Translations under genes and position numbers: made by a program | In this document: positions 3,636-17,962 of the stretch, one piece after another | How positions within the stretch are numbered: position 1 is the stretch's first letter | Layout: each line of letters opens with the position of its first letter | The notes under the pieces: model-generated | Database searches by the model: none | What the model saw: only the letters and a program-made list of their open reading frames with translations | Told to the model about the DNA's origin: nothing | DNA from: a virus | Direction: 5' to 3' (one strand) | Length of the DNA: 24,297 nt | Virus record (IMG/VR): IMGVR_UViG_3300030389_002376 | Span: 5,518 to 29,814 of that record

Positions 3636-4547
3636 ATGGCGATATCACGAGGACAACTAGTCAAAGAACTAGAGCCAGGATTGAATGCTTTATTCGGCCT
3701 GGAATATAAACGTTATGAGAATCAGCACGCTGAAATATACACTACTGAGTCTTCAGACAGAGCGTTTGAAGAAGAAGTTATGTTATCAGGTTTTGCTCAA
3801 GCTCATGTTAAACCAGAAGGAAGTGGAGTTGCTTTTGACAATGCTCAAGAAACTTTCACTGCAAGATATACACACGAAACTGTGGCTCTTGCTTTTGCGA
3901 TAACAGAAGAAGCGATTGAGGATAACTTGTATGACAGACTTGCTAGTAGATATACAAAAGCGTTAGCTAGATCTATGGCGAACACTAAACAAGTTAAATC
4001 GGTTGTACCACTAGTACAAGGTTTACCAACTAACGATGGCTTTGATACAGGTGACGGTGTTTCATTATTTAACACTGCACACCCAACAATAGCTGGAACA
4101 GTTGCTAACACTTTGGCTAACCAAGCTGATTTGAACGAAACTTCATTAGAGCAATCTTTGATTGACATTAATGCATTTACTGATGAGAGAGGTCTTAAAG
4201 TAGCTGCAAGAGGTGTTAAAATGATTGTACCTAGTGAGCTTCAGTTCACAGCTGAGAGATTAATGAAATCTCAAGGTAGAACAAGTACAGCTGATAATGA
4301 TGTAAACGCAATTGTGTCTATGGGAATGATCCCACAAGGTTACAGAGTTAATAACTTTTTAACTGATCCAGATGCGTTCTACATTATCACTGACGTACCA
4401 AATGGTATGAAGTACTTTGACAGAGCACCTATCAAGACTGCTATGGAAGGTGACTTCGATACTGGTAACGTAAGATACAAAGCTAGAGAAAGATACAGTT
4501 TTGGCTGTTCTGACTTTAGAGGTATCTTCGGTGTAGAAGGTGTATAA
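3636..4547 (+). CDS. Major capsid protein, Mu gpT-like
   Basis: The protein is 303 residues, the usual size of Mu gpT-type major head subunits. Recognisable pieces are the N-terminal region MAISRGQLVKELEPGLNALF, the ITEEAIEDNLYDRL segment (89-102), LFNTAHPT (144-151), and the C-terminal half with IVPSELQFTAERL (197-209) and FYIITDVP (248-255). These pieces occur in the HK97-fold Mu gpT family. The product would be the shell subunit, assembled on the scaffold and probably folded by host GroEL with the phage co-chaperonin at 1037-1498. An AAGGAG site (3622-3627) precedes the ATG. A perfect hairpin follows the stop, so the gene probably ends a transcription unit. The ISRGQ N-terminus recurs in the protein at 18013. 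Confidence 0.88.
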   Translation: MAISRGQLVKELEPGLNALFGLEYKRYENQHAEIYTTESSDRAFEEEVMLSGFAQAHVKPEGSGVAFDNAQETFTARYTHETVALAFAITEEAIEDNLYDRLASRYTKALARSMANTKQVKSVVPLVQGLPTNDGFDTGDGVSLFNTAHPTIAGTVANTLANQADLNETSLEQSLIDINAFTDERGLKVAARGVKMIVPSELQFTAERLMKSQGRTSTADNDVNAIVSMGMIPQGYRVNNFLTDPDAFYIITDVPNGMKYFDRAPIKTAMEGDFDTGNVRYKARERYSFGCSDFRGIFGVEGV

Positions 4548-8583: not shown

Positions 8584-8604
8584 CATAGGAGTTAAAATCC
8601 TATG
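8584..8604 (+). promoter_or_regulatory. Hairpin masking the start codon and ribosome-binding site
   Basis: CATAGGA (8584-8590) and TCCTATG (8598-8604) form a perfect 7-bp stem with a 7-base loop. The left arm and first loop base contain the AGGAG ribosome-binding site, and the right arm contains the ATG of the gene at 8602. The stem begins three bases after the stop codon of the previous gene, so a terminating ribosome would melt it. This is a textbook layout for translational coupling. Confidence 0.6.
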
Positions 8605-9678
8605 GCAGGCTGGTCAACTAATACCTGGAACGTTGGTTCATGGGGAACGGGTGTCGATAACATCGTTTCTCTCACAGGGATTAGTATGTCCACTGGTTCA
8701 GGATTTCTAAGCACCGATTCAACAGTAGAGCAAGGTTGGGGTAGAGATCAATGGGGTGCTAGAGCATGGGGTAATCCAGATCAGATTGTAGTTCCAACAA
8801 CACCTGAAGACACTATGTCAATGTCTTTAGGTTCTGTTTCTATTACAGCAGAAATAAATGCAGGTTGGGGTGCAAAAAATTGGGGAGACAATGCTTGGGG
8901 TATTCAGGGTAATGTTTTACCAACAGGTTTACCTATTACATCTACTTTAGGTAACGAAACAATTTCAATTGATGTAACTCCTGTTCCATTAGGAATAGGA
9001 ATGACAAGTGCACTTGGAAATGAAGATATAGATATTGCAACTACTATCTTCCAAACTGGTCTTCCAATGACTAGTGCATTAGCAAATGTTGATGCTGGTC
9101 CTGATGCAATGCTTACAACCAATCATGCAGTTATGGGTCTTGGATCTTTAGATGCATTTAACCAAACAGGTTGGGGTAGACAAGGTTGGAATGAAAATGC
9201 TTGGGGTGTTGAAGGACAGTTTGCAACTGCAACTCCTACAGGTATAGGAATGACCGCAGCTGCTGGAACGTTGGCAGCTACAGGTACAGCTAACTTAACT
9301 CTTAACACTTTAAACGTTGCTAATACAACATTAGGTCAAATAGATCCTGCACCTGATGCAAACTTATTAAGTCAATTAATGACTGCTAATTTAGGATCTC
9401 TTGAAGGTCAAGCAGGAGCAGGCGCAAGTCCAAATGGAATTGCAATGACTGCAAATTTAGGAACAATGGTAGCTGTTCCGAGTCAAGAGGTAGATGTAAC
9501 AGGATTAGCAGGTTTAGCTAGAGTAGCCTCTGTTACTCCTGTAATTCATGTAGATGTACAGGTTACAGGAAATGCCTTGACTATGGCTCAAGGTTCTGGT
9601 AGTGCTCTAATCTGGAATGAAGTAAACACAGGCTCAGCACCTTTAGACCCTCCAGGTTGGCAGGAAGTAGCTGCATAA
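8602..9678 (+). CDS. Trp-Gly repeat virion protein (fibre candidate)
   Basis: The protein is 358 residues. It holds four Trp-rich blocks: residues 3-14 (a looser copy), 45-57 (GWGRDQWGARAWG), 88-100 (GWGAKNWGDNAWG) and 190-202 (GWGRQGWNENAWG). Between and after them are short repeats of the type TG(L/I)xMTSxLGN (about 109, 130, 152, 213, 279), giving a regular Gly/Ala/Thr beta structure. There is no catalytic motif. The same GWGxxxWGxxxWG motif appears once in the nozzle protein at 12560. I recall similar repeat proteins in marine phages, listed only as structural. Its place before fibre-type genes fits a tail fibre or tail-surface protein. Confidence 0.7.
   Translation: MAGWSTNTWNVGSWGTGVDNIVSLTGISMSTGSGFLSTDSTVEQGWGRDQWGARAWGNPDQIVVPTTPEDTMSMSLGSVSITAEINAGWGAKNWGDNAWGIQGNVLPTGLPITSTLGNETISIDVTPVPLGIGMTSALGNEDIDIATTIFQTGLPMTSALANVDAGPDAMLTTNHAVMGLGSLDAFNQTGWGRQGWNENAWGVEGQFATATPTGIGMTAAAGTLAATGTANLTLNTLNVANTTLGQIDPAPDANLLSQLMTANLGSLEGQAGAGASPNGIAMTANLGTMVAVPSQEVDVTGLAGLARVASVTPVIHVDVQVTGNALTMAQGSGSALIWNEVNTGSAPLDPPGWQEVAA
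8608..9207 (+). repeat. GWGxxxWGxxxWG coding repeats
   Basis: Dispersed copies of a 13-residue Trp-Gly motif are encoded at 8734-8772, 8863-8901 and 9169-9207, with a looser copy at 8608-8643. The third copy has Asn in place of the central Gly. At DNA level they share GGTTGGGGT and similar blocks, which could allow recombination. Confidence 0.7.
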
Positions 9679-9706
9679 AGAGTTTGACACAAACTCTAAT
9701 TTTTAG
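9679..9706 (+). terminator. Intrinsic terminator overlapping a promoter
   Basis: AGAGTTT (9679-9685) pairs perfectly with AAACTCT (9691-9697) around GACAC, followed by AATTTTTAG. The stem begins directly after the stop codon of the Trp-Gly repeat gene. Only two of seven pairs are G-C, so it may be leaky. The loop and left arm contain the -35 box of the promoter at 9684-9712. Confidence 0.6.
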
Positions 9707-9712
9707 TAAAAT
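9684..9712 (+). promoter_or_regulatory. Sigma70-like promoter before the fibre genes
   Basis: TTGACA (9684-9689, perfect) and TAAAAT (9707-9712, 5/6) are separated by the ideal 17 bases and lie in a 57-base non-coding gap. Transcription would start near 9719, shortly before the ATG at 9736. It would drive the genes at 9736, 10441 and 11037. It is the best forward promoter in the window. Confidence 0.7.
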
Positions 9713-9735
9713 TAACACAAATAGGAATTTAAATT

Positions 9736-10437
9736 ATGGCAAACTCGACATCAGCTAATTTAAAACTGACAGTACAAGCAACCGGTGAAAACTCGGGAAC
9801 TTGGGGTCAAATTACAAATACAAACTTATTAATTTTAGAACAAGCTATTGGTGGTTTTACAACTTTTAACGTAACAAACGCTAATAGAGCTTTAACTTTC
9901 ACAAATGGTGCCGTATCAAATGGTAAAAATGATGTTATTAAATTAACAGGTACACTAGCAGGAAATTTAAACGTAACTATTCCAAACTCAATTGAAAAAA
10001 CTTATCAAGTTCAAGATGCTTGTGATCATGCAGGAAATACATTAACTTTTAAAACTGCATCTGGAACAGGCGTAGCTTTATGTGAAGGAAATAATTACAC
10101 ATTATATTCTGACGGAACTAATGTTGTAAAACTTCATGAGCAAAGAAACTGGAGAGTAGTTTCAGCAGCAGAAACAGTTCAAGCTGGTGCTCAACTTTTA
10201 GTAAATACAAATGGTGGAGCAGTAACGATTACACTTCCAGCATCACCTTCAACAGGTGATGAGGTTTCATTTGTAGATCAAGGTTATGATTTTGATAGTA
10301 ACGCATTGACTGTTGGAAGAAATGGATCTAATATAGCTAACTCAGCAGCTGATTTAGTAGTCAATACTCAAGGTGCTGGTTTCTGTTTAGTTTTTTCAGG
10401 AGACGCTACAACAGGTTGGACATTTAAGGAGAAATAG
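9736..10437 (+). CDS. Tail fibre-like virion protein
   Basis: The protein is 233 residues. The N-terminal part (MANSTSANLKLTVQATGENSG, then TWGQITNTNLLILEQAIGG) is a recurrent start among marine phage fibre and appendage proteins. Two similar beta-rich halves follow. In the second, QLLVNTNGGAVTITLPASPSTGDEVSFVDQ and the final SGDATTGWTFKEK are the characteristic parts. No enzyme motif is present. It comes first in the transcript from the promoter at 9684-9712 and is followed immediately by a tail-collar protein. An appendage or receptor-contact role is likely. An AGGA-type site lies at about 9722-9726. Confidence 0.75.
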   Translation: MANSTSANLKLTVQATGENSGTWGQITNTNLLILEQAIGGFTTFNVTNANRALTFTNGAVSNGKNDVIKLTGTLAGNLNVTIPNSIEKTYQVQDACDHAGNTLTFKTASGTGVALCEGNNYTLYSDGTNVVKLHEQRNWRVVSAAETVQAGAQLLVNTNGGAVTITLPASPSTGDEVSFVDQGYDFDSNALTVGRNGSNIANSAADLVVNTQGAGFCLVFSGDATTGWTFKEK

Positions 10438-10440
10438 AAT

Positions 10441-11028
10441 ATGGCAAATTACGAAGCAACAAGATACGATTTTTCAGGAGCAAATCTTACTGGTATCGAG
10501 GGAATTCCTACGGCTACTATTGTGCCGTGGTCTTCTTCTTCAGTGCCAACAGGTTTCTTAGAGTGTAATGGTGCAAACGTTTCAAGATCTACTTACTCTG
10601 CATTGTTTGCAATCATAGGTACAACTTACGGAGCTGGAGATGGATCTTCAACATTTACTTTACCTGATCTTCAAGATAACGTTGCAATGGGTAAATCTGG
10701 AACTAAAGCTTTAGCATCAACTGGTGGAGCAAATACGGTAGCCGCTTCAGGTACAGTAGGTGGTTCAACAGCTAACGCAACTTTAACAACTGCACAACTT
10801 GCATCTCACAGTCACGCTATGCAACCAACTAACTGGGGTAGTCACCACCCGAACCAAGGTTTTGGAGCAGGTTATACTCAAAATACTTCAGCTAGACCAC
10901 AAACTAGAAACACGACTAGCACAGGTTCTGGTACTGGTCACTCGCATAACATGAGTGCAACATTTACAGGTAGTGCAACTTCGGTAGTACAACCGTTTTT
11001 AACAATTATTTATATTATTAAGACGTAG
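10441..11028 (+). CDS. Phage tail collar domain protein
   Basis: The protein is 195 residues. Residues about 22-80 form a tail collar domain: GIPTATIVPW, then GFLECNGANVSRSTYSALFAIIGTTYGAGDGSSTFTLPDL, the usual GxGDGxxTFxLPDL signature. The rest has His pairs, HSH at 123-125 and 167-169 and HH at 135-136, and ends in VQPFLTIIYIIKT, as in T4 gp12 / Mdp-type proteins. In T4 gp12 and the L-shaped fibre family such His residues bind metal ions along a trimer. The protein is probably a trimeric tail tip or short fibre that touches the receptor. The ribosome-binding site (AAGGAG at 10427-10432) is inside the end of the previous gene. Confidence 0.85.
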   Translation: MANYEATRYDFSGANLTGIEGIPTATIVPWSSSSVPTGFLECNGANVSRSTYSALFAIIGTTYGAGDGSSTFTLPDLQDNVAMGKSGTKALASTGGANTVAASGTVGGSTANATLTTAQLASHSHAMQPTNWGSHHPNQGFGAGYTQNTSARPQTRNTTSTGSGTGHSHNMSATFTGSATSVVQPFLTIIYIIKT

Positions 11029-11036
11029 GAGAAAAG

Positions 11037-11378
11037 ATGGCAACAAACGCAACATGGACAATAGTATTTGATGATAAGATGATCATTAAACAAAGTGAAG
11101 GAATCGGATATACAATTGATGATGATACTTTTTGGAATCAATCACAATTTTCTAATATCTGGGCTATTCAATACGGAACTTCTAATTCTTCTGATGAAGT
11201 AGAACACAGAGATGAAACTCCTCATTGTAGTTATGCAGATGCAAATTTAGGAGATATTGGTCAATTTATAAGCAGATGGGACTCAGCGCATTTAGAACAA
11301 TTACAAATTGATTGGGACGAAGATCCTAGAGACGAATCTGAAAAAGGCCCTAGACCTACATCATACTCATCTCAATAA
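11037..11378 (+). CDS. Conserved acidic protein after the tail genes
   Basis: The protein is 113 residues beginning MATNATWTIVFDDKMIIKQSEG. It is acidic and Trp-containing, with FWNQSQFSNIWAIQYG in the middle and a run of ISRWDSAHLEQLQIDWDEDPRDESEKGP. I recall the family from marine phage contigs, always next to tail-collar genes, with no known role. A small acidic protein after a fibre gene could be a fibre chaperone (inference only). Its last 12 bases overlap the end of the reverse-strand oxygenase gene. A TAGGAG site precedes the start. Confidence 0.75.
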   Translation: MATNATWTIVFDDKMIIKQSEGIGYTIDDDTFWNQSQFSNIWAIQYGTSNSSDEVEHRDETPHCSYADANLGDIGQFISRWDSAHLEQLQIDWDEDPRDESEKGPRPTSYSSQ

Positions 11379-12554: not shown

Positions 12555-12582
12555 ATTATATGCTACAAAAATTAAATTTCAA
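12555..12582 (-). promoter_or_regulatory. Reverse-strand sigma70-like promoter for the oxygenase pair
   Basis: Reading on the reverse strand, TTGAAA (12582 to 12577, 5/6) is followed after 16 bases by TATAAT (12560 to 12555, 6/6). Transcription would start near 12548 and give a leader of about 30 bases before the ATG at 12516. The promoter sits over the start of the forward nozzle gene, so RNA polymerases heading both ways meet here. Confidence 0.65.
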
Positions 12583-17064: not shown

Positions 17065-17962
17065 ACCAATATGGTTTTCTGAAACAAATGAAGATAGAGG
17101 CGCGGTAGAAAAAATAGAAAAGGTTAGTTCTGATTCAAACGTAAGAACTATAAATATAAATGAAATGTTGGATAAACCAAAAGCAAAAATTATGGTTGCC
17201 ACTCCATGTCATAGTGAAGTGTCTATGCATTATTGTCAAGCAGTATTAAAATTTCAATTAGACTGTATGCAACAAGGTATACTTGTTAGCTATACTCTTC
17301 TTAAATCATCACTAGTTACACAAGGTAGAAATCTTTGTGTTGCAGAGTTTTTAAATCATAAAGATCATTATGATTATCTTTTATTTATAGACTCAGATAT
17401 AGATTTTGATTCTAAAACTATCTACAAAATGATAGGTGCCGATAAAGATATTATATCTTGTCCGTATCCCATGAAAACATTTGATCTAGATAAGATGTGG
17501 AAAAAAATGAAAGAGACAGACATAGTTAAAACAAAAGATGATGTGCTAAGAGCTGCGCATGTGTTTCCTCTTAAGATTGGTAAGAATGAATTAGAAATGA
17601 AAAATGGGGTTATTAAAGTAACTCATGCTCCTACAGGGTGTATGTTAATCAAAAGATCTGTTATTGAAAAAATGATTAAACATCACCCAGAACTAGAGAT
17701 ATATCAACCCACTGTTATTAATGGTAAAGAGGTTAAAAAAGAAAATTTCTATAATCTATTTGATACCCTACATGATATAAAAACTAAAAGATACTTTGGT
17801 GAGGACTTTGGTTTTTGTCAAAGATGGACAGATATGGGTGGAGAGATATATGTGTATGCCTTAGACTATATAACCCATGTTGGTGATCATCAATATTGTG
17901 GTAGATTTTTTGATCTATTAGAACACGCAAAACGTGTTGACGATAGTAAAAAAATCAAATAA
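17051..17962 (+). CDS. GT-A glycosyltransferase (GT2-like)
   Basis: The protein is 303 residues. After a polar 40-residue start come KIMVATPCHSEVSMHYCQAV (46-65) and LVTQGRNLCVAEFL (88-101). The metal-binding DSD at 114-116 follows in LLFIDSDIDFDSKT, then SCPYPMKTF (136-144), HAPTGCMLI (192-200), and the catalytic GEDFGFCQR (250-258) with HVGDH (276-280). This is the GT-A order, with Asp-rich metal site and acidic base. It would use a nucleotide sugar with a divalent metal. A strong AAAGGAG site (17038-17044) lies inside the previous gene. Acceptors could be a capsid or fibre protein, a host lipopolysaccharide part or DNA; the sequence does not decide. Confidence 0.85.
   Translation: MQNNKPIWFSETNEDRGAVEKIEKVSSDSNVRTININEMLDKPKAKIMVATPCHSEVSMHYCQAVLKFQLDCMQQGILVSYTLLKSSLVTQGRNLCVAEFLNHKDHYDYLLFIDSDIDFDSKTIYKMIGADKDIISCPYPMKTFDLDKMWKKMKETDIVKTKDDVLRAAHVFPLKIGKNELEMKNGVIKVTHAPTGCMLIKRSVIEKMIKHHPELEIYQPTVINGKEVKKENFYNLFDTLHDIKTKRYFGEDFGFCQRWTDMGGEIYVYALDYITHVGDHQYCGRFFDLLEHAKRVDDSKKIK

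Follow-up and report, generated by a model that had tools for sequence, protein, structure and literature searches.

A predicted sigma-70-type promoter sharing bases with a terminator-like hairpin ahead of the fibre gene in relatives of Pelagibacter phages

Introduction

Phages of SAR11 bacteria are very abundant in the sea, and little, to our knowledge, is known about the control of their transcription. The locus described here raises the question of whether the signal that ends one transcript and the signal that starts the next can be written in the same few bases and, if so, how such an arrangement is distributed among related phages. The window (i.e. the whole stretch of DNA that was analysed, 24,297 nucleotides) comes from a virus record of 29,814 bases and belongs to a phage that is kin to the Pelagibacter phages HTVC027P and HTVC023P. 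It had been proposed, in what is here called the original prediction, that a single element in the gap ahead of the fibre gene stops the upstream transcript and starts the fibre transcript. The reading preferred in the following, which we hold to be probable, is that a conserved promoter of the host sigma-70 type would share bases, in the window's branch, with a compact terminator or 3′-end hairpin lying past the stop codon.

The site and its genome context

All features of the site lie on the plus strand. The upstream gene (8602–9678, 358 amino acids) ends in a TAA stop codon (9676–9678), the fibre gene starts at the ATG at 9736, and both the hairpin and the promoter are contained in the 57-nt gap between the two. 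The upstream gene has close relatives in viral contigs and is without PHROG or Pfam match; the sole phage record matched by its protein is HTVC027P (41.5% identity), the homologue being gp68. The fibre gene (9736–10437, 233 amino acids), the predicted first gene of the new transcript, encodes a protein 86.7% identical to the putative tail protein of HTVC027P. It is followed by a gene with a tail collar domain (10441–11028; Pfam PF07484) and by a gene for a 113-amino-acid protein (11037–11378), the last before the minus-strand genes, both of which probably belong to the same transcript as the fibre gene. The gene order at the corresponding site of HTVC027P (gp68, gp69 tail, gp70 collar) matches that of the window, and the homologous gap spans 40384–40438 of MN698241.1.

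The hairpin (9679–9697), which abuts the TAA stop codon, reads AGAGTTTG-ACA-CAAACTCT and has eight pairs, three of them G-C, around the loop ACA. The −35 box TTGACA (9684–9689) is made up of the last three bases of the 5′ arm (TTG) and of the loop itself (ACA). The 3′ arm and a run of five T (9700–9704; the U tract of the putative terminator), which is separated from the stem by AA, fall within the 17-nt spacer (9690–9706), and the −10 box TAAAAT follows (9707–9712), giving 11 of 12 consensus bases. From the distance to the −10 box, transcription would be expected to start at 9719, upstream of a ribosome-binding-site-like AGGAA (9723–9727). The original prediction had this anatomy almost entirely right: the TTGACA within the hairpin agrees base for base, the near-perfect promoter with its 17-nt spacer and TAAAAT stands as described, and so do the sequence, position and T run of the hairpin, the one correction being that the stem has eight pairs rather than seven.

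The hairpin alone has a predicted RNA folding energy of −6.8 kcal/mol, and the folding z score of the segment 9660–9735 is −2.99, with 2 of 200 shuffles equally good. A scan of the window against Rfam at the gathering score gave no match. Promoter-like matches, taken alone, occur at chance level (69 found versus 69.3 expected in shuffles); on the plus strand, two matches reach at least 11/12 consensus bases with a spacing of 16–18 nt, and only the promoter at 9684 touches an intergenic gap, in a sequence where non-ORF bases account for 1158 of the 20297 examined. The composite of promoter and hairpin was found at a single site in the window, and its homologue is likewise single in the two pieces covering HTVC027P. 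One hundred dinucleotide shuffles of the whole window yielded 16 composites at 10/12 or better and two at 11/12 or better, so that a composite this good is expected about 0.02 times per window by chance. Conservation in relatives, considered below, is stronger evidence than these whole-window shuffles.

The N4-like virion polymerases use hairpin promoters, and a promoter of this kind was also considered; it was set aside, the −10 box, spacing and context fitting sigma-70.

Other promoter-like sites were observed in these genomes. In the window, TTGAAA-16-TATAAT lies on the minus strand (12582–12555) in the divergent gap before the gene at 12560, and HTVC027P has a counterpart of this site (L161, 18821, minus strand). 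HTVC027P (L162) also carries three TTGACA-17-TAGGAT promoters, at 17718 (−), 19224 (+) and 19774 (+); the −10 box of the two plus-strand sites is embedded in a palindrome resembling TAGGATARTCCTA, which is a candidate operator.

Sampling of relatives

Relatives were gathered through the fibre and upstream proteins, and the conservation counts use these alone, loci fetched by DNA pattern being excluded. Classes were counted on 200 distinct 80-base upstream regions, drawn from the 379 loci that extend 300 bases or more upstream, shorter loci being dropped. A promoter was called at a score of at least 9, a hairpin when a stem of at least six pairs lay over the −35 box, and a T run at four or more T. 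Folding was compared, in clusters at 75% flank identity, with that of shuffled arms (p ≤ 0.05).

Pattern scans served to locate the element elsewhere. When viral contigs were scanned for the exact hairpin core, 106 of 112 among the matches listed lay less than 400 nt from a homologue of the fibre or upstream gene, and for this reason the hairpin element is not taken to be a mobile repeat; the remaining six of those listed look unrelated. A scan for TTGACA-17-TAAAAT-AAGGA-ATGGC placed 130 of 150 among the matches listed near a fibre gene and 20 at other genes. Four contigs filed in a Maricaulis metagenome-assembled genome (L629, L630, L633 and L634) have this phage's fibre gene and may represent phage DNA that was binned together with the bacterium.

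Conservation of the promoter

A scored −35/−10 pair is found upstream of the fibre gene in 192 of the 200 distinct regions, and is absent or unclear in eight. Among the 62 distinct window-type elements fetched by protein, TTGACA is present in all 62, as is a TAnnnT hexamer at −10, and the spacer measures 17 nt in 61, the script having picked TATAAT at 15 nt in the odd one. The 67 distinct HTVC023P-type elements have the 17-nt spacer in 59 cases.

In this second group, the −35 box overlaps coding sequence. The upstream gene ends V-D-x-A-A in 65 of the 67 protein-fetched cases, and the Val codon bearing TTGA is invariably GTT (65 of 65). Of the other Val codons of these ORFs, 843 of 2037 (41%) are GTT, and of those before Asp 56 of 174; third positions do vary in the preceding Glu and following Ala codons. 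The invariance of GTT points to a constraint on the DNA beyond that on the protein, with the proviso that these are related sequences and not 65 independent trials. Hexamers at 16–18 nt and conservation beyond other constraints (kinship uncorrected), both expected of a sigma-70 promoter, are observed here, and a promoter for the fibre genes is, as a prediction, well supported.

The promoter can occur by itself in a close relative. The locus L016, whose fibre protein is 90% identical to that of the window, has TTGACA-17-TAAAAT with the −35 box in coding sequence and without a hairpin; its junction is thus of the coding class described below, and a near relative therefore has the promoter and no hairpin. 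Phage 023Pt_psg01 lacks the promoter, a single base separating the upstream stop codon from the fibre ATG.

As to the polymerase, according to the available part of the HTVC027P transcriptome paper, an RNA polymerase gene is peculiar to HTVC022P, the other phage of that study, and use of the host polymerase is therefore expected for HTVC027P. RNA-seq data of HTVC027P infection are deposited (PRJNA1253180).

Three placements of the −35 box

The position of the −35 box relative to the preceding stop codon divides the elements into three classes. In class C (80 elements), the box falls within the terminal codons of the upstream gene, which typically ends V-D-x-A-A-stop; in class S (11 elements), it is on the upstream TGA stop codon, as in GCTTGACA; and in class N (101 elements), it is past the stop codon, which is the placement of the window. 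The class S junctions (L592, L599, L605, L608, L609, L615, L617, L619, L620, L622 and L627) have the upstream TGA within the −35 box (GCTTGACA or GCTTGATT), stop codon and promoter box sharing bases.

In 31 of the 80 class C elements (e.g. L163, around 3950–4003), the −10 box ends at most 11 bases from the fibre ATG, and 23 of these 31 are without a Shine-Dalgarno-like motif, and class N leaders have such a motif in 100 of 101 cases. The fibre mRNA of the HTVC023P branch may, on this pattern, be nearly leaderless.

In a fibre-protein tree built from 179 rows and 128 columns, with few of its forks supported, at least eight changes are needed between the after-stop and the other placements; the T-run class requires 13 on this poorly resolved tree. 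At the L016/L515 junction, a window-type fibre gene is combined with an upstream gene carrying a coding-embedded −35 box, which suggests gene exchange at this junction, as is also hinted at by the poorly resolved tree.

Conservation of the hairpin and the weighing of alternatives

The promoter is kept throughout the group, and the hairpin is lineage-specific, having apparently been gained or lost in different branches. A stem of at least six pairs over the −35 box with a T-rich tail is present in 60 of 62 window-type elements versus 6 of 67 of the HTVC023P type. By placement, a hairpin over the −35 box is found in 94 of 101 class N elements (with the T run too in 77), in 23 of 80 class C elements (with the T run in 4) and in none of the 11 class S elements. 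The comparison with shuffled arms gave p ≤ 0.05 in 6 of 10 class N clusters (the other four at p = 0.057, 0.097, 0.13 and 0.31), in 0 of 15 class C and in 0 of 5 class S clusters. The check proposed with the original prediction, conservation of both parts in relatives, thus came out positive for the promoter (192/200) and for the class N hairpin (94/101); in classes C and S, no significant structure was found.

These counts bear on the alternative that the promoter alone matters and that the hairpin reflects a symmetry around TTGACA which arose by chance in A+T-rich DNA. Classes C and S do keep the promoter without a significant hairpin, and, of 20 unrelated phage promoters that share the consensus, 5 have a lax six-pair hairpin over the −35 box; however, the contrast between window-type and HTVC023P-type elements, the arm shuffles and compensating changes all argue against chance, which we regard as a very improbable explanation. 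The pairing itself was examined in 31 distinct window-type elements, where 89.0% of pair cells are standard versus 85.1% (s.d. 1.0) when shuffled, covariation is 0.122 versus 0.070 and versions slid along the alignment are at most 58.4% paired. At the end of the stem, 15 elements have A-U, nine have U-A and seven are unpaired; the number of pairs with both sides changed is not exceptional, being reached by 51 of 500 shuffles. Across branches, the arms differ yet pair (AGAGTTTG, TGAGTTT, AATAAGTGT, TTATAGT, ACAAG), and the branch of HTVC027P lacks the inner pairs but gains outer ones, between the TAA of the stop codon and a downstream TTA.

A palindrome over the −35 box is a usual place for a repressor site, and this position would favour an inverted repeat acting as a DNA operator for a repressor or activator. 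Yet the arms vary by branch, as just listed, and the symmetry centre is displaced by some 3 nt with respect to the −35 box (it falls on ACA in the window and on TTG in L539), a poor fit to a fixed protein contact; neither the window nor HTVC027P yielded a second copy of the composite, and no half-site was found that is conserved in sequence and in its distance from the −35 box. Because the arms and the symmetry centre shift, a protein-binding palindrome is improbable.

A further alternative concerns the function of the RNA. Instead of ending transcription, the hairpin could protect the 3′ end of the upstream mRNA or mark a site where this mRNA is processed, the T run being a by-product of the A+T-rich spacer, as is suggested by sister branches (L539/L543, L566, L584 and others) that keep the hairpin without a T run beside the stem. 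However, all 31 distinct window-type elements agree in four T columns, though a sigma-70 spacer needs no fixed bases, and a run of at least four T is present in 77 of 101 after-stop elements, which makes this alternative an unlikely one. The stem-loop appears to be kept by selection, and the U tract, two bases past the stem, is weak in sister branches. The terminator is called putative because the hairpin of related branches has a poor T run. Hairpins of this kind account for 17 of the 101 after-stop elements, so that the older hairpin was perhaps not a terminator and may have served as a 3′-end hairpin.

Proposed mechanism and significance

In the mechanism proposed here, which is the simplest account, the host polymerase would read the sigma-70 promoter and transcribe three genes (fibre, collar and the one that follows) as a unit of their own. 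The −35 box of the wider group is accommodated at the end of the upstream coding sequence or on the TGA that stops it; in the window's branch, it comes directly after the stop codon, enclosed in a short hairpin that is followed by a T run, and promoter and hairpin share bases within the 57-nt gap. Hairpin and T run would most likely end or trim the upstream transcript by intrinsic termination. We infer use of the host RNA polymerase, upstream transcript ends near 9700–9704, a start near 9719 and a three-gene unit. As for the claim that one element stops the upstream transcript and starts that of the fibre gene, the conserved promoter and a T-run hairpin that fits a terminator speak for it, but relatives keep the promoter without the hairpin, and the description as one element holds for the window's branch only.

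A bolder possibility, which we think improbable, is a relay in which the polymerase ending at the T run would stay on the DNA over the fibre promoter and restart there, tying fibre expression to upstream transcription. If this were true, the after-stop branches would form a natural series of relay strengths, with coding-class relatives as relay-free controls.

Being recognisable among HTVC023P-type phages whichever of its three positions it takes with respect to the upstream stop codon, the promoter is a testable landmark, and the matched natural variants allow one to ask whether the overlap of terminator and promoter interferes or helps restart.

Comparison with known systems

In pelagimyophages, an attempt to predict middle and late promoters is reported to have failed (PMC7029224); few promoters are described in pelagiphage papers, with four sigma-70 promoters and no terminator reported for phage skadi (PMC10504331), both as far as the available parts of these papers go. 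In the open-licence literature, as far as available to us in part, no description of a nested terminator-promoter in these phages was found.

The element resembles a sigma-70 promoter in its TTGACA, 17-nt spacer and TAAAAT, with 11/12 consensus bases, and is unlike it in that the −35 box lies here in a hairpin and, in relatives, in the last codons or on the stop codon. Likewise, a stem-loop directly past a stop codon and followed by a T run is what is seen in intrinsic (Rho-independent) terminators, whereas the three G-C pairs only, the two-base gap between stem and T run, and a loop and spacer that double as a promoter are not.

Among phages, the T7-like LUZ100 is described, in the available part of the report, as having a terminator and a promoter between transcription units (PMC10134795); the separate promoter/terminator control of a structural gene is shared with the window, but the two signals are neighbouring there and nested here. 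In purified systems, RNA polymerase stays on the DNA after intrinsic termination and can restart (PMC6978380, PMC6978322), also at nearby promoters (PMC6978380); a putative terminator that coincides with a promoter is a feature of the window and not, in the available parts of those two reports, of the systems they describe. Promoter and terminator are, then, each known in kind, and their nesting is a variant.
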